Assembly: GCA_017469115.1 (NCBI GenBank) | Contig: JAFUGY010000068.1 | Span: forward strand, 1 to 53,577 | DNA from: Oscillospiraceae bacterium | Lineage (GTDB): Bacteria; Bacillota; Clostridia; Oscillospirales; Oscillospiraceae | Reading direction: 5' to 3' | Length of the DNA stretch: 53,577 bases | Shown here: positions 1-9,224 of the stretch, piece after piece | Position numbering within the stretch: position 1 is the stretch's first letter | How the letters are laid out: each line of letters opens with the position of its first letter | Made by a program: the position numbers and the translations under genes | Notes under the pieces: model-generated | Database searches by the model: none | Seen by the model: only the letters and a program-made list of their open reading frames with translations | Told to the model about the DNA's origin: nothing

Positions 1-947
1 CCGATGGTCTCGCAGAAGGTCCGGATACTGCGGGCAGTGTATCCCCTGCGGCGAAGCCCGCAAAGAGTGGGCATGCGAGGATCATCCCATCCGGAGACAT
101 AACCGTTTTCAACCAACTGGCGGAGCTTACGCTTGCTCATAACCGTATAGTTGATGCCAAGGCGGGCAAACTCGATCTGGCGAGGCTTATGGTACGGGAT
201 TGAAACGTTGCTGACTACCCAATCGTAAAGCGGGCGGTGTGCCTCATATTCCAGGGAGCAGAGAGAATGGGTGATGCCTTCCAGCGCATCCTGAATCGGA
301 TGGGCAAAATCGTACATCGGGAAGATACACCATTTTGTGCCCTGGCGGTGATGTTCAATGTAACGAATCCGGTAGAGAACGGGATCCCTCATGTTGAAGT
401 TGCCGCTGTTAAGGTCAATTTTAGCACGCAACGTATACCTGCCTTCGGGAAATTCTCCGTTACGCATCCGCTGGAATAAATCGAGGTTTTCTTCTATGGG
501 TCTGTCACGCCAGGGGGATACGGCGGGATGGGAAATGTCTCCCCGGTATTCCCGGAATTGCTCCGGGGAAAGCTCACAGACGTAAGCAAGGCCTTTCTTG
601 ATCAGCTCAATCGCATATTCATACGTCTGCTCAAAATAGTCAGATCCGTAAAATAGCCTGTCGCCCCAGTCAAAACCGAGCCAACGGATATCCTGTTGAA
701 TGGCATCGACAAATTCGGTGTCTTCCTTCGCAGGGTTGGTATCGTCAAACCGCAGATTGTAAATGCCGCCGAATTTCTCAGCGGTGCCGAAGTCGATCGT
801 CAAGGCTTTGCAGTGCCCGATATGCAGATAACCGTTCGGTTCCGGCGGAAAACGGGTGTGAACCTGCATTCCTTCAAACTGACCTCCTTTGCCGATGTCT
901 TCTGCAATAAACTGCTCAATAAAGTTTCTGGAAATCGTTTCGTCCAT
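1..947 (-). CDS. glnS: glutamine--tRNA ligase, N-terminal 315 residues (runs off window)
   Basis: Charges tRNA-Gln with glutamine in the cytoplasm (class I synthetase). Reading the minus strand from the ATG at 947 gives an open frame to the window edge. The HIGH-type motif LHIGH lies at residues 41-45, FDDTNPAKE follows near residue 66, and the KMSKS-type loop appears as VMSKR near residues 269-273. Residues after the catalytic core are beyond the window. The ATG is supported by a GGAG seven bases upstream and a promoter at 981-1009. GlnRS rather than GluRS is favoured by the start [13 protein letters not shown] and by [15 protein letters not shown]. Nothing looks broken in the visible part. 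Confidence 0.95.
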
Positions 948-1110: not shown

Positions 1111-1139
1111 TTGACGAATGTGGCGAAAAACGTTAAAAT
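1111..1139 (+). promoter_or_regulatory. liv operon promoter
   Basis: TTGACG (1111-1116), 17-base spacer, TAAAAT (1134-1139). Predicted transcription start is about 1146, giving an untranslated leader of roughly 310 nt before livK. Overlapping copies of TTTCGTC/GACGAAA lie just upstream (1040-1070) and could be an operator; this is not established. Confidence 0.7.
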
Positions 1140-1174
1140 ACAGTCCATACAAGAAAGGGAAAGGAGCATGTGTC

Positions 1175-1357
1175 ATGACGAACCGTTTCACAATGAATTC
1201 ATCCGCAGCGTCTGCATGCGCCTGCGCTTCTTTTTCCTGTGCATCTTTCCGCCTTATTACGGACGCCGTTTTGGCGTCCGTTTCTGTTATTACCGTTATT
1301 CCTTCCCTTCGCATTAAAAACGAATATAACCACATAAAAAGCGGAGTTTCTGAGTAA
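1175..1357 (+). CDS. putative leader peptide, rich in Leu/Ile/Val, upstream of liv operon
   Basis: A 60-residue frame begins at ATG 1175 behind a good ribosome binding site (GGAG at 1163-1166, spacer 8) and about 29 bases after the predicted transcription start. Residues 27-47 contain 11 Leu, Ile or Val out of 21, including VSVITVI. The stop codon is at 1355-1357, just before a terminator-like hairpin. There is no resemblance to a folded protein family. I read it as a regulatory leader peptide whose translation senses charged branched-chain tRNAs. The Ala/Ser/Cys-rich first half is unexplained. It could instead be a spurious frame, but its position, RBS and overlap with a competing hairpin argue against chance. 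Confidence 0.6.
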   Translation: MTNRFTMNSSAASACACASFSCASFRLITDAVLASVSVITVIPSLRIKNEYNHIKSGVSE

Positions 1358-1407
1358 CTTCTTTCAGGCGAACATTCAGGCGGCTCCGCTAACAGCGGAG
1401 CCGCTTT
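1340..1407 (+). promoter_or_regulatory. putative transcription attenuator (antiterminator/terminator)
   Basis: A perfect 11-bp stem (1380-1390 with 1394-1404, loop AAC) followed by TTT forms a weak terminator. AGCGGAG at 1340-1346, inside the last codons of the leader peptide, is perfectly complementary to CTCCGCT at 1384-1390, which is the left arm of that terminator. The two pairings exclude each other. A ribosome at the stop codon would cover 1340-1346 and allow termination; one stalled in the Leu/Ile/Val block (1253-1315) would leave it free to form the antiterminator. A further hairpin, ACGGACGCC/GGCGTCCGT, is at 1259-1281. Confidence 0.55.
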
Positions 1408-1456
1408 AATGTTATAGAATGCGTATCCCTATTAATTAGAAAAAAGGAGAAAAAAC

Positions 1457-2587
1457 ATGAAAAAAGTATTCGCAATTGTTCTCGCAATGGCTATGGTCTT
1501 TGCTCTGTCTGCTACCGCATTCGCAGACGGTGCATTCAAAATCGGCTCCAGCGGCCCTCTGACGGGCGGTGCGGCTATTTATGGCAATGCTGTTATGAAT
1601 GCTGCACGGATTGCTATTGATGAAGTCAATGCAGAAGGCGGCATGCAGTTCGAGTTCCAGGCACAGGACGATGAGGCGGACTCCGGCGATAAGGCTATCA
1701 ACGCTTACAACACCCTGCTTGACTGGGGTATGCAGGTTATGATTGGCACGGTTACTTCCGGATCCGGCATCACGGTTTCCGCGCAGGCTGCTGAAGACCG
1801 TATGTTCATGCTCACGCCCTCCGGCTCGTCTGTCGATATGATTGATGGGAAAGACAATGTCTTCCAGGTTTGCTTCACTGACCCGAACCAGGGTGTTGGC
1901 TCTGCTGACTATATGGCAGAAAATTTTGCAGGGGCAAAAGTTGCTGTGATCTACCGCAATGATGACGCTTACTCTCAGGGCATCCGTGACACCTTTGTCA
2001 AGGAAGCAGAGGCGAAGGGTGTTGAAGTTGTCTATGAAGGCACCTTTACCAACGATACCGCAACTGACTTCTCCGTTCAGCTTACCGATGCTCAGGCTGC
2101 CGGTGCTGACATGCTGTTCCTCCCCATTTACTATCAGCCCGCATCCGTTATCCTCAGCCAGGCAAACCAGATGGGCTATGCTCCCACTGTCTTCGGTGTT
2201 GACGGTATGGACGGAATTCTGACTCTCGAAAACTTTGATACCTCTCTTGCTGAAGGTGTTATGCTGCTCACCCCGTTCTCCGCTGATGCAGATGATGCCC
2301 GTACACAGGCGTTTGTTGCAGAGTATCAGAATCGTTACGGCGAGGTCCCCAACCAGTTTGCAGCTGATGGCTATGATGCAGTTTACATTGTAAAGGCTGC
2401 TCTGGAAGCTGCAGGCTGCACTCCGGATATGTCTTTTGAAGACATCTGCGAGGCACTGGTTGCTGTGATGCCCACCATTACGGTTGACGGAATCACCGGT
2501 CAGGGAATGACCTGGGCAGCATCCGGCGAAGTCTCCAAGGCTCCGATGGCTGTTGTCATCCGTGACGGAGCCTACGTTACTCCGTAA
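1457..2587 (+). CDS. livK: branched-chain amino acid ABC transporter substrate-binding protein
   Basis: Extracytoplasmic receptor for Leu/Ile/Val or related amino acids (type I periplasmic-binding fold), delivering substrate to LivHM. 376 residues, with start ATG behind AAAAAGGAG. Residues 1-23 form a signal peptide ending ATAFA before DGAFKIGSSGPLTGG, the usual mature N-terminus of this family. No Cys follows the hydrophobic core, so there is no lipobox; lipid anchoring is the norm for Gram-positive binding proteins, so retention at the membrane needs another explanation. It is the first gene of the liv operon, separated from livH by an intercistronic hairpin. True ligand specificity cannot be read from the sequence. 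Confidence 0.93.
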   Translation: MKKVFAIVLAMAMVFALSATAFADGAFKIGSSGPLTGGAAIYGNAVMNAARIAIDEVNAEGGMQFEFQAQDDEADSGDKAINAYNTLLDWGMQVMIGTVTSGSGITVSAQAAEDRMFMLTPSGSSVDMIDGKDNVFQVCFTDPNQGVGSADYMAENFAGAKVAVIYRNDDAYSQGIRDTFVKEAEAKGVEVVYEGTFTNDTATDFSVQLTDAQAAGADMLFLPIYYQPASVILSQANQMGYAPTVFGVDGMDGILTLENFDTSLAEGVMLLTPFSADADDARTQAFVAEYQNRYGEVPNQFAADGYDAVYIVKAALEAAGCTPDMSFEDICEALVAVMPTITVDGITGQGMTWAASGEVSKAPMAVVIRDGAYVTP

Positions 2588-2722: not shown

Positions 2723-3601
2723 ATGAAGTTTCTGGCCTATCTGGTCAGTGGAATCAGTTTGGGCAGTATCTATGCCATTATCGCTTTAGGCTATACGATG
2801 GTATATGGCATTGCCAAGATGATGAACTTTGCCCACGGTGATGTGATTATGGTCGGCGGTTATATTTCATTTATCGCCGCTAATTACTGGGGCCTTCCGA
2901 CTGTTGTTTCGATTGTCATTGCCATGCTGGTGTGCACCATGCTTGGCATCGTGATTGAGGGGCTTGCCTATAGGCCGCTTCGCAGCGCTCCGTCTCTTGC
3001 GGTATTGATTACTGCAATCGGAGTCAGCTATTTCTTACAGAATTCTGCTCTGCTGATATGGGGTGCCAACCCGAAGGCTTATACGCCTGTTGTCAGCGGA
3101 ACGCTCCGCCTCTTTCAGGGGCAGCTTTCCATCTCCTATGTCTCCATGGTAACGGTTGCAGCCTGCATTATTATTATGATTGCATTAACGCTCTTTACGA
3201 GCCGCACACGGATGGGAAAAGCCATGCGTGCCTGCTCGGAAGATAAAGGGGCTGCACAGCTGATGGGAATCAATGTCAACTTTACCATATCATTGACATT
3301 TGCAATCGGCTCAGCTCTTGCTGCTGTGGCAGGTGTTCTGCTCTGCTCTTTTTCACCGACTCTGATGCCGACGACTGGTTCCATGCCCGGCATCAAGGCT
3401 TTTACAGCTGCGGTGTTTGGAGGGATCGGGTCGATCCCGGGGGCTTTCTTGGGAGGCATTCTGCTGGGCGTGATTGAATCGCTTGCGCGTGGATACATTT
3501 CCACCCAGCTTTCCAATTCCATTGTTTTTGCCGTCCTGATCATAATCCTTTTGGTCAGACCTGCCGGGTTACTCGGTAAAAACGTGCAGGAGAAAGTGTG
3601 A
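2723..3601 (+). CDS. livH: branched-chain amino acid ABC transporter permease LivH
   Basis: Inner-membrane permease subunit that pairs with LivM to form the substrate channel. 292 residues with about eight hydrophobic segments; the start MKFLAYLVSGISLGSIYAI and the internal TMVYGIAKMMNFAHGD and FGGIGSIPGAFLGG are typical of LivH. The ATG has GAGAGG upstream. The stop at 3601 abuts livM. Ordinary length and no visible damage. Confidence 0.93.
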   Translation: MKFLAYLVSGISLGSIYAIIALGYTMVYGIAKMMNFAHGDVIMVGGYISFIAANYWGLPTVVSIVIAMLVCTMLGIVIEGLAYRPLRSAPSLAVLITAIGVSYFLQNSALLIWGANPKAYTPVVSGTLRLFQGQLSISYVSMVTVAACIIIMIALTLFTSRTRMGKAMRACSEDKGAAQLMGINVNFTISLTFAIGSALAAVAGVLLCSFSPTLMPTTGSMPGIKAFTAAVFGGIGSIPGAFLGGILLGVIESLARGYISTQLSNSIVFAVLIIILLVRPAGLLGKNVQEKV

Positions 3602-3611
3602 GGTGGGACCT

Positions 3612-4694
3612 GTGAATCGTAAAACTTTATTCAAAGACTCCCGCAGTGATCTTTTCACGTATCTTGGCGTCATCCTCGCCTTTATCGTGATTACAATGCT
3701 GAAAAACAGAGGAGCCTTGAACCGTTCTCAATCCGGTCTCCTGGTTCCGATCTGCTGCTATATTGTCATGGCGGTTTCGTTGAATCTGACGGTTGGCATC
3801 CTTGGCGACTTAAGCCTCGGGCATGCCGGGTTTATGAGTGTGGGTGCTTTCACCGGGATCATAACCTCCATGAGTTTGATTGATATCATTCCGTCGGCAC
3901 CGATTCGTCTTACGATAGCCATCTTTGTTGGGGCATTTTTTGCATCCATTGTCGGCTTTCTCGTGGGCATTCCTGTTCTCCGTCTGAAAGGGGATTATCT
4001 TGCCATTGTAACACTGGCTTTCGGAGAAATCCTGAAAGAACTGATTACTTGTTTGATTGTCGGCTTCGACAGCAAAGGGCTTCATATCATTTTTAACGTA
4101 TCCGGCAGCAAAACTGCAAACGACCTGAACCTGTTGGAAGGCGGACGTGTGATTATCAAAGGCGCTCAGGGTGCCACCGGGACGAAGACTATAGCGAACT
4201 TCACAGCCGGGTTTATCCTCGTGATGATTACGCTGGTGATCGTCCTCAATTTGATTCGCAGTCGTCATGGCCGTGCTATTATGGCAATTCGCGATAACCG
4301 CATTGCGGCAGAATCCGTTGGAATTCCGCTGACGAAGTTTAAGATGATTGCTTTTGTCACATCAACGGCTTTGGCTGGGGCTGCAGGCGCATTGTTTGGT
4401 TTGAACTATTCCAATCTCGCCGCAGCAAAGTTCGATTTCAATACCTCCATTCTGGTTCTGGTGTTTGTGGTGCTCGGCGGGCTCGGAAATATCTGGGGTT
4501 CGATTCTTGCAACGGTTGTACTCTATATTCTGCCCGAAGCCCTGCGCGGCTTTGCCAGCTACCGAATGCTGATTTATGCAATTGTGCTGATTCTTGTTAT
4601 GCTCACGACCAACAACCCAGTGCTCAAGTCTCTCTTCTCACGGTGGAGTTTCCGCGGTAATAAACAGGAAAGCGAGGGTGGCAGCAATGGCTAA
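3612..4694 (+). CDS. livM: branched-chain amino acid ABC transporter permease LivM
   Basis: Second permease subunit of the liv transporter. About 360 residues, multiple membrane segments; the NLTVGILGDLSLGHAGF stretch and LGGLGNIWGS near the C-terminus are LivM hallmarks. I chose GTG 3612 because GAGGTG (3600-3605) sits six bases upstream; GTG 3603 in the same frame is the alternative and would add three residues. The 3' end overlaps livG by eight bases. Confidence 0.92.
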   Translation: MNRKTLFKDSRSDLFTYLGVILAFIVITMLKNRGALNRSQSGLLVPICCYIVMAVSLNLTVGILGDLSLGHAGFMSVGAFTGIITSMSLIDIIPSAPIRLTIAIFVGAFFASIVGFLVGIPVLRLKGDYLAIVTLAFGEILKELITCLIVGFDSKGLHIIFNVSGSKTANDLNLLEGGRVIIKGAQGATGTKTIANFTAGFILVMITLVIVLNLIRSRHGRAIMAIRDNRIAAESVGIPLTKFKMIAFVTSTALAGAAGALFGLNYSNLAAAKFDFNTSILVLVFVVLGGLGNIWGSILATVVLYILPEALRGFASYRMLIYAIVLILVMLTTNNPVLKSLFSRWSFRGNKQESEGGSNG

Positions 4695-5535
4695 AAAAGA
4701 AACCGTTCTTGTCCCGATGCCATCCGTCAACATGATTCCGGAGCGCGACTCGGACAAATCTCCTGTGCTGGAGTGTATCAATCTCGGCATTTCGTTCGGC
4801 GGCTTAAAAGCAGTGGAGAATTTCAACATTGCACTTGGCCGTACAGAGATCTCCGGACTAATCGGCCCCAACGGAGCGGGAAAAACCTCAGTTTTCAACC
4901 TGCTCACCAAGGTCTATGAGCCAACAGAGGGAACGATTCTGCTGGAAGGCAAGGATACCAAATCACTTTCCACGGCTCAAGTCAATCAGGCCGGTATTGC
5001 GAGGACATTCCAGAACATCCGTCTGTTTCAGAATCTTTCGGTGGAAGACAACGTTAAAATTGCCATGAATGCGCAGATGAAGTATTCGCTTCTCAGCAGT
5101 ATTCTTCGTCTCCCTTCTTACTGGAAAGAAGAACGGGTAGCTCACGAGCGGGCAATGGAGTTGCTCAGCATTTTCAACATGCAGGATCTGGGGGATGCCA
5201 AAGCGGGCTCACTGCCCTACGGCGCCCAGAGAAGGCTTGAGATTGTCCGTGCCATGGCAACCAATCCGTCCATACTTCTTTTGGATGAGCCTGCAGCTGG
5301 GATGAACCCGTCCGAGACGACTGAGCTGATGGAAAACATCCAGCGTATCCGGGATACCTTCCACATTGCAATACTTCTCATTGAGCACGATATGAATCTT
5401 GTAATGAACATCTGTGAAGGAATCGCCGTCATGAACTTCGGGCGGATTATTGCGAAGGGCACACCGTCACAGATTCAAGCGAATCCTGTCGTCATCGAAG
5501 CCTATCTCGGCAAGAAGAAGGAGGCAGGAGCATGA
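4687..5535 (+). CDS. livG: branched-chain amino acid ABC transporter ATP-binding protein LivG
   Basis: Cytoplasmic ATPase subunit powering LivHM. 282 residues from ATG 4687, which overlaps the livM stop; a longer in-frame extension to 4594 would lie wholly inside livM and is unlikely. Walker A is GPNGAGKTS, the Q-loop region is RTFQNIRLFQ, Walker B is ILLLDEPAAGMNP, and the switch His is in IEHDMNLVM. The ABC signature reads LPYGAQRRLE, where the family usually has LPYGQQRRLE. The first 25 residues before the ABC core are an unusual short extension. Confidence 0.93.
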   Translation: MAKKETVLVPMPSVNMIPERDSDKSPVLECINLGISFGGLKAVENFNIALGRTEISGLIGPNGAGKTSVFNLLTKVYEPTEGTILLEGKDTKSLSTAQVNQAGIARTFQNIRLFQNLSVEDNVKIAMNAQMKYSLLSSILRLPSYWKEERVAHERAMELLSIFNMQDLGDAKAGSLPYGAQRRLEIVRAMATNPSILLLDEPAAGMNPSETTELMENIQRIRDTFHIAILLIEHDMNLVMNICEGIAVMNFGRIIAKGTPSQIQANPVVIEAYLGKKKEAGA

Positions 5536-6239
5536 GTACCATTTTAAAAGTCAATTCAATCAACGTCTATTACGGGAACATTCATGCCATAAAAGATATC
5601 TCTTTTGAGGTAAATGAGGGGGAAATCGTCACTTTAATAGGTGCAAACGGGGCGGGAAAATCATCAGCCCTAAATACCATTACCGGGCTATTACGGAGCA
5701 AAACAGGTTCCATTGAATTCAACGGAGAAAACATCTCCCATACACCGGCTTACAGAATCGTCAGCAAAGGGTTGGCGCTGGTTCCGGAAGGAAGAAGAAT
5801 TTTCCAGCAGATGACGGTGAAAGAAAACCTGGATATGGGTGCCTATACCGGGAAGGACGGCTTTGAGAAAAAGCTGGAAGAGGTTTATACTCAGTTTCCG
5901 CGGTTGAAAGAGCGTGAAAAGCAGGTCGCGGGAACTCTCAGCGGCGGGGAACAGCAAATGCTGGCTATGGGCCGTGCATTGATGAGCTCTCCGAAACTTT
6001 TGATGCTCGATGAACCTTCCATGGGGCTTGCACCTATTCTGGTAGAGCAGATTTTTGATATCATATCGGCTCTTCATAAAAAAGGGACTACCATTTTGCT
6101 GGTGGAACAGAACGCACAGGCAGCCCTTGCCGTGGCCGACAGAGGCTACGTTCTTGAAACGGGAAAGATTGTCACCACCGGTACGGGTGATGAATTGCTG
6201 AACTCTCCGGCCATCAAAAAAGCCTATCTCGGTGGATAA
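5532..6239 (+). CDS. livF: branched-chain amino acid ABC transporter ATP-binding protein LivF
   Basis: Second ATPase subunit of the liv transporter. 235 residues, with Walker A GANGAGKSS, signature LSGGEQQML, Walker B LLMLDEPSMGLAP and switch VEQNAQAAL. Its ATGA start overlaps the livG stop by four bases, so the two ATPases are translationally coupled. Last gene of the operon; the valS promoter begins nine bases after its stop. Confidence 0.94.
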   Translation: MSTILKVNSINVYYGNIHAIKDISFEVNEGEIVTLIGANGAGKSSALNTITGLLRSKTGSIEFNGENISHTPAYRIVSKGLALVPEGRRIFQQMTVKENLDMGAYTGKDGFEKKLEEVYTQFPRLKEREKQVAGTLSGGEQQMLAMGRALMSSPKLLMLDEPSMGLAPILVEQIFDIISALHKKGTTILLVEQNAQAALAVADRGYVLETGKIVTTGTGDELLNSPAIKKAYLGG

Positions 6240-6276: not shown

Positions 6277-6282
6277 TCTGTC

Positions 6283-6531
6283 AATTGCTGAGAAGGGCAG
6301 GAGTACGCATCTGCGGCGGATTCAGAGAGAAGGCGGTTGGTGAAAGCTTTTATCTGCACTATGCGGAAGGTCGGCTTGGAGCTTCGGGAGTGAAAGAGAG
6401 TAGCTTTCGGCGGGGGGTTCCCGTTACAGGATCAGGGATCTGACAGGATCCCGCAAAGTGCCGTTTTCAACGGAATTCAGGTGGTACCGCGGTAAAAATT
6501 ATCGCCCTGAGGTTTTCCTCGGGGCGTTTTT
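6283..6531 (+). promoter_or_regulatory. T-box riboswitch controlling valS
   Basis: Senses uncharged tRNA-Val and prevents termination when it is bound. The T-box sequence AGGTGGTACCGCGG is at 6479-6492. The terminator follows: CGCCCTGAGG (6503-6512), TTTT loop, CCTCGGGGCG (6517-6526), then Ts. Upstream, AGTA (6302-6305) and GGTTGGTGAAAGC (6335-6347) match Stem I features. A GTC triplet at 6370-6372, after GGAAG, is the best candidate specifier codon for Val; the exact register was not folded. Confidence 0.92.
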
Positions 6532-6584: not shown

Positions 6585-9224
6585 ATGAAAGAACTTCCGA
6601 AAGTGTATGACCCGAAAAAGGTAGAAAAGAAAATCTACGACATGTGGATGGACGGGAATTATTTCCGTGCGGAAATCGACCCGAAGAAAAAGCCCTTCAG
6701 CATTGTAATGCCCCCTCCCAACGTCACCGGGCAGCTGCATCTCGGCCACGCAATCGATTCAACTCTGCAGGATATTCTCACACGCTACAAGCGCATGCAG
6801 GGATATTCCGCTCTCTGGCTACCGGGTGTTGACCATGCAGGCATTGCCACACAGATCAGGGTGGAAGAAGAGCTCCGCGTCAAAGAAGGTTTGACCCGTT
6901 ATGACCTCGGGCGTGACAGATTCCTCGAGCGCGTCTGGGCATGGAAGGAACATTTCGGCAACCGTATTGTGGAGCAGCAGAAGACGCTCGGCGTCTCGGC
7001 AGACTGGAGCCGCTCCCGCTTCACGATGGATGACGTCTGTGCCAAGGCAGTTCGTGAGACGTTCTGTGATCTCTACGAGAAGGGTTTGATCTATAAAGGC
7101 AGAAGAATCATCAACTGGTGCCCGCACTGCCGCACTGCGCTTTCTGATGCAGAAGTGGAATATAAGGATATTCCCGGCCATTTCTGGTATATCCGGTATC
7201 CGGTAGAGGATTCCGACGAGAAGTTCATCATTGCCACGACACGCCCCGAAACGATGCTGGGCGACACCGGCGTTGCAGTCAATCCTGCGGATGAGAAGTA
7301 CCAGCACCTGGTTGGCAAAAATGCGATTCTCCTGCTTGTCGGCAGAAAGCTCCCGATTGTTGCGGATGACTATGTGGAACTCGGTTTCGGTACCGGCGCT
7401 GTAAAGATGACGCCATGTCATGACCCCAACGACTATGAAGTTGCCCTCCGCCATAACCTTGAGATGATCCAGGTGATCGATGAAGACGCCAAGATTATCA
7501 ACGACGGCTGCAACGGCCGCTATGACGGAATGGACCGTTACGAGTGCCGCGAGCAGATTGTGAAGGACCTCGAAGAGCAGGGATACCTTGTCAAAGTGGA
7601 AGACTACAGCCATAACGTCGGCTGCTGCTATCGCTGCGGTACCACGGTTGAACCTATGACCAGCCCACAGTGGTTTGTCAAGATGGCACCTCTGGCCGAG
7701 AAGGCCATTGAAGTGGTGAAAGACGGCCGGATCAAGTTCGTGCCGGAGCGTTTTACCAAGACGTATCTCAACTGGATGGAAAACGTTCACGATTGGTGCA
7801 TTTCCCGCCAGCTTTGGTGGGGGCATCAGATTCCCGCCTGGTATTGTGACGATTGCGGTCACATCACTGTCAGCCGGGAAGATGCCTGCGAGTGTGAAGC
7901 CTGCCACAGCAAAAACATCCACCGTGAGGAAGACGTGCTCGATACCTGGTTCTCCTCTGCACTCTGGCCCTTCAGCACGATGGGCTGGCCGGAAAGAACT
8001 CCGGAACTTGATTACTGGTATCCCACTTCGGTGATGGTCACCGGGTATGACATTATCTTTTTCTGGGTTGCACGAATGATCTTCTCCGGGATGGAACAGA
8101 TGAAGAAGGAACCGTTTAAAACGGTCTTCATCCATGGTTTGGTGCGTGACAGCCAGGGCAGAAAAATGTCAAAATCCCTCGGAAACGGGATTGATCCCAT
8201 CGATATGATCAATCAGTTCGGCGCCGATGCCCTGCGCTTCAACCTGATTACAGGTAACTCTCCCGGAAACGACATGCGTTTCTATGTGGAGAAGTGCGAA
8301 GCCATGCGCAACTTCTGCAACAAGATCTGGAATGCCTCCCGTTTCGTCATGATGAATCTCACCATCGACAAAAATGAGCTTCCTGACAAGCTGGAGATTG
8401 AGGACAAGTGGATTCTCTCCAAGCTGAACGACACCATCCGCGAAGTCAACGCCAACATGGATGCCTATGAGCTCGGCGTTGCTTCCGGCAAGATTTACGA
8501 TTTTATCTGGGATACGTATTGTGACTGGTATATCGAGCTGACGAAGCCCCGCCTCAATTCAGATGATGAAGAGTTGAAGACGAATACGCAAAAGGTTCTG
8601 CTGTATGTTCTCACCGAGATCCTGAAACTTCTGCATCCGTTTATGCCGTTCATCACCGAAGAAATTTGGCAGGCTCTGCCTCATGAGGAGAATGCTCCGG
8701 GTGCTCTGATGGTCTGCAACTATCCCGCCTTTGACGAAAAGCTTTCTTTCCGTGAAGACGAAGTCAACTTTGAGATGGTGATGGATGCCATCAAGGCAGT
8801 GCGTGCGCGCAGAGCAGAGATGAATGTTCCGCCCTCCAGAAAAGCGCATCTCTACATCGTGACCGACAGACAGGCAGCTTTTGAAGCCGGAAGGACTTAT
8901 ATTTCGAAACTTGCGTATTCTTCCGATGTTTCGATTCTCGCCGATCTTCCGGCTGACAGTGACAAGATGGTCTCTGTGATTACTGACAATGCCCGCCTCT
9001 TCATGCCGATGGCCGATCTCGTTGACTTTGAAGCTGAAAAGGCAAGACTCACCAAAGAGATTGAGAAAACCGAAAAGCTTATCGCAGGCCAGGAGGCAAA
9101 GCTTGCTAATGAAAACTTTGTTTCCCGTGCACCAGAAGCAGTTGTCAACACCGAGCGGGAAAAGAAAGCAAAGCTCGAAGCGCTTCTGGAAAATCTGAAG
9201 CTCAGCCTTTCCAATCTCGGCTGA
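6585..9224 (+). CDS. valS: valine--tRNA ligase
   Basis: Attaches valine to tRNA-Val and edits mischarged Thr. 879 residues, the normal bacterial length. The HIGH-type motif is LHLGH (residues 51-55) after PPPNVTGQ; KMSKS is present exactly, near residue 527. The CP1 editing region and CPHC and CYRCG zinc-type cysteines lie between them. The C-terminal 70 residues form the usual coiled-coil arm. AGGAGG upstream and the T-box leader support the start. It is followed by a clear terminator. Confidence 0.97.
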   Translation: MKELPKVYDPKKVEKKIYDMWMDGNYFRAEIDPKKKPFSIVMPPPNVTGQLHLGHAIDSTLQDILTRYKRMQGYSALWLPGVDHAGIATQIRVEEELRVKEGLTRYDLGRDRFLERVWAWKEHFGNRIVEQQKTLGVSADWSRSRFTMDDVCAKAVRETFCDLYEKGLIYKGRRIINWCPHCRTALSDAEVEYKDIPGHFWYIRYPVEDSDEKFIIATTRPETMLGDTGVAVNPADEKYQHLVGKNAILLLVGRKLPIVADDYVELGFGTGAVKMTPCHDPNDYEVALRHNLEMIQVIDEDAKIINDGCNGRYDGMDRYECREQIVKDLEEQGYLVKVEDYSHNVGCCYRCGTTVEPMTSPQWFVKMAPLAEKAIEVVKDGRIKFVPERFTKTYLNWMENVHDWCISRQLWWGHQIPAWYCDDCGHITVSREDACECEACHSKNIHREEDVLDTWFSSALWPFSTMGWPERTPELDYWYPTSVMVTGYDIIFFWVARMIFSGMEQMKKEPFKTVFIHGLVRDSQGRKMSKSLGNGIDPIDMINQFGADALRFNLITGNSPGNDMRFYVEKCEAMRNFCNKIWNASRFVMMNLTIDKNELPDKLEIEDKWILSKLNDTIREVNANMDAYELGVASGKIYDFIWDTYCDWYIELTKPRLNSDDEELKTNTQKVLLYVLTEILKLLHPFMPFITEEIWQALPHEENAPGALMVCNYPAFDEKLSFREDEVNFEMVMDAIKAVRARRAEMNVPPSRKAHLYIVTDRQAAFEAGRTYISKLAYSSDVSILADLPADSDKMVSVITDNARLFMPMADLVDFEAEKARLTKEIEKTEKLIAGQEAKLANENFVSRAPEAVVNTEREKKAKLEALLENLKLSLSNLG

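Follow-up and report, generated by a model that had tools for sequence, protein, structure and literature searches.

In the trp, ilvGMEDA and ilvB leaders of Escherichia coli, stalling of a ribosome at regulatory codons chooses between an antiterminator and a terminator, and these leaders rely on a 1:2 protector hairpin. The E. coli pyrBI leader contains a single terminator, which overlaps the leader open reading frame (ORF) and is governed by the closeness of the ribosome; it senses UTP and uses no amino acid codons. pyrBI is named as an example of coupling in PMC4824070. Two attenuation steps in one leader are described for the tandem attenuators of Salmonella mgtCBR, which comprise two ORFs and two signals (PMC3641672). 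The three-hairpin attenuator of C. glutamicum ilvBNC includes a branched-chain amino acid (BCAA) leader peptide and a hairpin that shields the leader initiation region, and its antiterminator shares sequence with each of the two other hairpins (AAT/AT/T) (PMC11857589). Attenuation of B. subtilis vmlR is controlled by an upstream ORF (uORF) encoding a tripeptide, responds to antibiotics and involves a T-rich pause hairpin downstream of the uORF hairpin (PMC9226507). Firmicute leader peptides are already known for hisS/hisZ (PMC2965389), and a leucine-rich attenuator peptide has been reported for BCAA genes in the ilv-leu (ilvD) biosynthesis operon of S. aureus (PMC5794164). The ilv-leu leader combines an ORF containing Ile/Leu codons with an antiterminator and a single terminator hairpin, located 52 nt past the stop codon; an ORF-internal terminator-like hairpin is not described in the available part of that report (PMC5794164).

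Comparison of the leader upstream of livK in the window (the whole 53,577-nucleotide stretch of Oscillospiraceae DNA analyzed here) with these systems revealed both shared and distinct parts. As in the E. coli trp, ilvGMEDA and ilvB leaders, ribosome stalling would decide between antiterminator and terminator, but the livK leader has no detected protector and contains, within its ORF, an autonomous terminator-like hairpin (H2). An ORF-overlapping hairpin under the control of ribosome closeness would resemble pyrBI, from which the livK leader differs by its amino acid codons and its second hairpin. The BCAA context, the leader ORF, the downstream terminator, the antiterminator and the Firmicute host are shared with S. 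aureus ilv-leu, whereas the livK leader precedes an importer operon. Like mgtCBR, it may carry two attenuation steps, but a single ORF runs through its first hairpin; a BCAA leader peptide and a putative hairpin over the leader initiation region are shared with ilvBNC, but unlike the hairpins of ilvBNC, H2 is independent of the antiterminator; and with vmlR it shares uORF control and a hairpin with a T-rich site. Leader-peptide attenuation of Firmicute BCAA genes is therefore already known, and the ORF-internal terminator-like hairpin before livK is what appears to be new. It was counted as new because titles and abstract openings of the open-licence literature searched contained neither a livK leader peptide nor a pair of ORF-internal and post-ORF terminators. 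uORF motifs and ilvD/ilvB motifs are presented in PMC8632094, in the available part of which none on livK was found, and in the main text of PMC8040213 the terms leader peptide, livK, branched, attenuat and Oscillo are all absent.

The leader region is bounded by a divergent gene (3-947, minus strand), which from its sequence we take to be glnS, and by livK (1457), and contains a promoter, a 60-codon ORF and a strong hairpin. Pfam analysis of the downstream genes identified a Liv-type ABC importer, livKHMGF, composed of a binding protein, two permeases and two ATPases. The original prediction of leader-peptide attenuation at this locus was supported, and we assign a probability of roughly 0.9 to its core, a putative BCAA leader-peptide attenuator ahead of livKHMGF. 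The features assigned in the window are as follows.

1111..1139, plus strand: sigma-70-type promoter TTGACG-17-TAAAAT (10/12 matches), with a probable transcription start near 1146
1155..1177, plus strand: 5' untranslated region with the leader Shine-Dalgarno sequence and start codon, able to pair with 1214-1239 (family-level swap test)
1175..1357, plus strand: leader ORF of 60 amino acids (aa), MTNRFTMNSSAASACACASFSCASFRLITDAVLASVSVITVIPSLRIKNEYNHIKSGVSE, from ATG 1175 to TAA 1357 (similar frames in relatives)
1214..1239, plus strand: early-ORF partner of the Shine-Dalgarno region in the closing helix, Ala/Ser/Cys/Phe codons (codons 14-22)
1253..1258, plus strand: first BCAA codons (Leu, Ile), directly upstream of the inner hairpin (codon reading)
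1259..1281, plus strand: ORF-internal hairpin H2 (putative gate 1), terminator-like or pause, ACGGACGCCG TTT TGGCGTCCGT (terminator scan, folds, relatives)
1268..1315, plus strand: codons rich in BCAA, VLASVSVITVIPSLRI, running from inside H2 to beyond it (codon reading)
1282..1291, plus strand: T-rich tail of H2, TTCTGTTATT (terminator scan, family profile)
1340..1355, plus strand: antiterminator 5' strand, pairing with 1374-1390 (fold, family-level tests)
1374..1390, plus strand: 3' strand of the antiterminator, which takes in part of the terminator's left arm (fold)
1378..1406, plus strand: terminator hairpin H3 (putative gate 2), with an extended stem at 1371-1413 and a weak T tail (folds)
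1457..2587, plus strand: livK, Liv-type substrate-binding protein (Peripla_BP_6, E 1.3e-50)
2723..6239, plus strand: livH, livM, livG and livF, two BPD_transp_2 permeases and two ABC ATPases (Pfam)

A GC-rich perfect hairpin, CTGTCCGGAGCGGTTTCGCTCCGGACAG, is located at 2649-2676 between livK and livH, with T-rich sequence further downstream. It is possibly a partial terminator or an mRNA-processing signal that raises the binding protein over the permease.

Homologous loci were gathered with the livK protein from genus, family and named genome contigs, many of them metagenome-assembled genomes, which yielded 196 livK loci, 191 of them with at least 300 nt upstream. A leader was seen at 71 loci; 5 identical copies were dropped and 66 distinct leaders were kept. 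These leaders were picked where a leader was seen (20/71 through a scan requiring a T-tailed hairpin) and are therefore not a sample of all livK genes. Counts for H2 use 60 of the 66; five leaders without a T-tailed H2 (L043, L073, L139, L194 and L202) and one in which another hairpin was picked automatically (L159) were left out. As related copies are not independent, a set of 19 divergent leaders carries the tests. The nearest leaders noticed (L024 and L114) show 43% and 37% identity to the window leader and have the core ASF...DA..ASV in common. Other leaders vary widely in sequence between clades and have lengths of 32 to 102 aa, but the order of parts is retained in most of them.

The predicted promoter is present at its position, but three promoter-like sites were found in the scanned 1,851-base stretch compared to 2.3 expected by chance, and the promoter match alone therefore proves little. 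The predicted leader ORF was likewise found, preceded by the ribosome binding site aaaggag, so that a short, apparently translated ORF lies between promoter and livK. In 13 overlapping pairs of close leaders, 161 of 358 changes were at third codon positions and the dN/dS-like ratio was 0.50. This coding constraint, together with the hydrophobic stretch that most of the 66 leaders encode after H2, would also suit a small hydrophobic membrane protein that is produced alongside the transporter, to which the RNA features would be secondary. We consider such a protein very improbable, given the range of leader lengths and the divergence between clades, the scarcity of BCAA codons up to H2 and their packing after it, and a hairpin that is selected beyond the peptide; moreover, comparison of the window leader peptide with Pfam-A gave no family at E≤10. 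The leader peptides of four relatives gave no Pfam-A family at cut-off, and none named as a leader peptide.

BCAA genes in Firmicutes are usually controlled by T-boxes, riboswitches or CodY, and a protein- or metabolite-responsive leader with a chance ORF was therefore weighed. Rfam analysis of the leader at gathering score and at E≤5 gave weak sub-threshold matches only, the best of which reached 23.9 bits against a cut-off of 49.9, and the T-box covariance model (RF00230) had no match there; on these RNA-family comparisons, a leader of this kind is the least credible of the readings considered. A T-box leader (RF00230, 116.6 bits), the only one in the window, is located at 6281-6512, upstream of a gene at 6585 that is presumably valS. 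This is the next large gene past the liv operon, and two distinct systems for sensing BCAA supply would lie side by side here. Rfam analysis of 20 livK loci first taken as leaderless revealed only a tRNA; two of them (L104 and L105) carry the leader further upstream. A peptide attenuator on a liv transporter had been called notable for a Firmicute, but S. aureus ilv-leu provides a precedent on BCAA genes (PMC5794164).

Analysis of the codon content revealed that residues 27 to 47 of the window leader (LITDAVLASVSVITVIPSLRI) include 11 Leu/Ile/Val, as claimed, while codons 2 to 26 include none. Among the 60 leaders with the hairpin, BCAA codons before H2 amounted to 42/1,752 and 36 leaders had none; the pattern was less strict in the 19 divergent leaders, with 25/491 and none in 7 leaders. 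The BCAA share was 62 to 72% at the five codons just 5' of H2 and 59% from H2 to the last 12 codons (60 leaders). At least two BCAA codons were present among the five before H2 in 52 of the 60 leaders and in 15 of the 19 divergent leaders. The regulatory codons thus match the amino acids handled by the operon. The ribosome footprint usually extends about 16 nt past the first P-site base, and the left arm of H2 would therefore be largely or entirely covered by a ribosome that waits at the first BCAA codons. In the 60 leaders, the valine codon GTA accounts for 33%, compared to 8% in livK, livH and part of livM of the window.

The original prediction comprised core parts of the mechanism that held, but it was incomplete, overlooking the ORF-internal hairpin H2 (1259-1281) and the helix that closes the Shine-Dalgarno sequence (SD helix). 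H2 starts 78 to 140 nt from the start codon in the leaders. Folding of 1257-1283 gave -17.4 kcal/mol, and none of 200 shuffles was as stable. A consensus terminator scan listed H2 and omitted the downstream hairpin, because the tail of the latter has fewer than the five T required; the scan found two sites, compared to 1.9 expected by chance. H2 was then compared with a peptide-keeping null, in which the leader was recoded with synonymous codons and the hairpin search was repeated on each recoding. The hairpin was better than its recodings at P = 0.02 in the window and at P ≤ 0.05 in 18 of the 19 divergent leaders. These results indicate that H2 is conserved beyond what the peptide requires. 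Covariation was determined after 8 odd-length hairpins (including that of the window) had been removed from the 60, which left 52 copies, 45 of them distinct. Nine of the ten base pairs had changed on both sides in the 45 distinct copies, and the covariation was 0.587 compared to 0.303 in shuffled alignments, with 0/500 shuffles as high. Of the H2 cells, 97.8% were paired, compared to 24 to 52% in slid registers, although the former value arises partly by construction because the copies were picked as hairpins.

The stem of H2, mostly 9 to 12 bp, is followed by T at 92 to 95% in four of the first five positions. The 8-nt tail contains on average 5.85 T compared to 2.41 expected in the 66 leaders, and 5.83 compared to 2.45 in the 46 leaders that were not chosen by the T-requiring scan. 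A run of at least four T follows H2 in 47/60 leaders, whereas the window has only three. H2 therefore has, family-wide, the anatomy of an intrinsic terminator, a GC-rich stem followed directly by a T tract. We infer a role for H2 as terminator or pause. Synchronizing pauses are usual in attenuators, and in an alternative, one-gate attenuator only the stop-codon antiterminator and H3 would act, while H2 would be a NusG-type programmed pause that lets the ribosome catch up without terminating transcription. The 16 nt that surround the end of H2 contain the motif TTNTTT in 33 of the 60 leaders, compared to 17 of 688 control 16-mers, and a hairpin with TTNTTT is a NusG-dependent pause in the uORF-controlled leader of B. 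subtilis vmlR (PMC9226507), which makes a pause role a serious alternative. We nevertheless regard the one-gate attenuator as rather unlikely. The anatomy described above is that of a terminator, and TTNTTT is absent after H2 in the window and in its two nearest leaders. In addition, some weaker matches to an H2 model are hairpins located shortly after the ends of genes, as described below.

A model of H2 (R1) was used to search genomes. In its own genome, it matched only this site at E<1, and 58 of 102 genus genomes had some match at E≤0.05. The best 29 of the genus-wide matches were livK-type leaders (24 by coordinates, 4 on opening and 1 cut by a contig end), three of which precede a different Liv-type binding protein. 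By eye, a like leader stands before a gene for a different Liv-type binding protein that adjoins a sugar-kinase-like gene at L218, L220 and L223. Ten weaker matches were opened, and none was located in a BCAA-rich leader ORF; two were inside mechanically called ORFs and eight between ORFs of at least 90 aa. Four of these eight were located at most 24 nt behind the stop codon of a same-strand ORF, as terminators sit.

The predicted terminator-like hairpin downstream of the ORF proved to be the core of H3. The core (-24.6 kcal/mol) and the extended stem (-29.8 kcal/mol) were each more stable than all of 200 shuffles. The T tract behind it is weak, as had been stated (CTTTAATGTT), and the longest T run is three in both tails of the window; many relatives have longer T runs behind H3. 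An apparent intrinsic terminator, with a strong hairpin and, in the window, a weak T tail, thus precedes the first gene. Pairing of 1340-1346 with the left arm of this hairpin, also predicted, was found to be the core of a longer antiterminator. Folding of 1335-1395 revealed 16 bp (-21.5 kcal/mol, z -3.5), with 3/200 shuffles as good, and at this length the antiterminator extends as far as the first nucleotide of the stop codon. From this position, a ribosome at the stop codon would mask the 5' strand. The antiterminator excludes the terminator, with weaker support under the peptide-keeping null, where it was not significant in the window alone (P = 0.26) and is supported at the family level. 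The arginine codon CGA accounts for 25% in the 60 leaders compared to 0/21 in livK, livH and part of livM of the window, and in the leaders it is often located within the antiterminator strand.

Pairing between leader segments was analyzed by swapping partners among the 19 divergent leaders. Three combinations were significant, each at P = 0.0002: the arms of H2 (z -8.05), the antiterminator with the terminator (z -6.40) and the Shine-Dalgarno region with the early ORF (z -4.23). Per leader, the effect was modest, since the own partner was in the best 5% in 5, 1 and 0 of 19 leaders for H2, the antiterminator and the SD helix, respectively. Dinucleotide shuffles of the 60 leaders gave a mean z of -1.64 for antiterminator and terminator (23/60 at P ≤ 0.05) and -1.13 for the Shine-Dalgarno region and early ORF (17/60), followed by terminator and early ORF at -0.53 (9/60). 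Under the peptide-keeping null, support in the 19 leaders was modest for the SD helix (2/19 at P ≤ 0.05; Fisher P = 0.003) and for the antiterminator (3/19; Fisher P = 0.013); in some leaders the antiterminator extends past the stop codon, where this null leaves positions unchanged. In the window alone, the SD helix was not significant (peptide-keeping null P = 0.44; 27/200 shuffles folded equally well). The codons before the pre-H2 BCAA cluster are 46% Ala/Ser/Cys, with Cys at 6.5%. This excess is explained by the SD helix only in part, and a sensing role of the Ala/Ser/Cys codons is conceivable.

The 12 other combinations were not significant in the swap test (P = 0.10 to 0.76); thus, neither a protector strand nor reuse of the H2 arms was detected. 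These results bear on the classical trp/ilv chain of 1:2 protector, 2:3 antiterminator and 3:4 terminator, in which H2 would be strand 1:2. The leader ORF, the regulatory codons, the in-ORF hairpin and the downstream terminator all belong to such a system. However, the H2 arms revealed no excess pairing with other segments in dinucleotide shuffles (mean z -0.23 to 0.17), nor did the right arm of H2 in the swap test, either with the antiterminator region (P = 0.10) or with the post-H2 region (P = 0.73). The antiterminator showed no excess pairing with the early ORF or the post-H2 region in either test. As neither a protector strand nor reuse of the H2 3' arm was detected, the 1:2:3:4 chain is disfavored and a highly improbable account of this leader.

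Relatives had been named as the check on the attenuator reading. Many livK loci have retained the leader frame with its Leu/Ile/Val-rich part as well as both the terminator and the antiterminator, but 38 of 60 further family livK loci had no match to the H2 model. A covariance model of H2 built without the window copy matched 20/84, 28/48 and 22/60 livK loci (E up to 0.006); many of the matching loci had trained the model, and same or near-identical loci were counted apart across collections. Within the first of these collections, none of 45 livK loci titled Lachnospiraceae, Butyrivibrio, Pseudobutyrivibrio, Coriobacteriaceae, Collinsella, Atopobium or Enorma matched. Two loci (L030 and L121) have promoter-like sequence and a terminator upstream of livK and lack the leader ORF, by either a real deletion or assembly collapse. 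Three leaders of 39 to 40 aa without H2 (L139, L194 and L202) have an antiterminator that pairs across the stop codon with the loop and right arm of the terminator, and a Eubacteriales livK has a 32-aa leader (L073) with 50% Leu/Ile/Val and without H2, a simpler, classical-looking version. The leaderless loci and the five leaders without a T-tailed H2 (these four and L043) indicate that the full design is not universal.

Taken together, the parts suggest a two-gate, ribosome-mediated transcription attenuator for livKHMGF, which we consider probable, with less confidence than the core reading. RNA polymerase would transcribe the leader, and the Shine-Dalgarno sequence would close once about codon 20 to 28 is made. 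This early closure would allow only an early ribosome to load, the SD helix thereby limiting the loading time. If no ribosome is close, H2 would form and transcription would stop (gate 1). If a ribosome is close and BCAA-tRNAs are charged, it would reach the stop codon and mask the antiterminator strand, and H3 would form and terminate transcription (gate 2). A scarcity of charged BCAA-tRNAs would instead stall the ribosome on the first BCAA codons, where it would cover the left arm of H2 and leave the antiterminator free. BCAA shortage would thus open both gates, and the importer would be made. Given that no protector was detected, the antiterminator should be free whenever the leader is untranslated, and the operon would then be expressed; H2, if it terminates, would close this loophole. 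These dynamic steps we infer. In E. coli, a terminator retained most of its efficiency when placed 30 bp inside a coding region, and a late-placed one was partly repressed (PMC4824070).

Transcription that outruns translation is reported for B. subtilis, according to a review. A sign of such runaway transcription, the distance from stop codon to terminator, was sought in the window, where only three terminators were available and none was within 12 nt of a stop codon. Should polymerase generally run ahead of the ribosomes in these bacteria, sensing of the ribosome position needs the exclusion of uncoupled transcripts, and a conserved in-ORF terminator combined with an initiation window would be one way to exclude them. 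The two-gate leader could then serve as a coupling filter, a tentative idea to which we give slightly less than even odds. The SD-closing helix and the ORF-internal terminator would remove transcripts without a close ribosome, so that the second terminator could still read the ribosome position where polymerase may outrun ribosomes, and the first BCAA codons would let a stalled ribosome hold gate 1 open. The H2 region is a clear example of dual coding, in which covariation preserves a hairpin beneath a peptide with codons that are themselves regulatory. A little-studied lineage, represented here mostly by metagenome-assembled genomes, would thereby gain a defined BCAA-linked regulatory switch.
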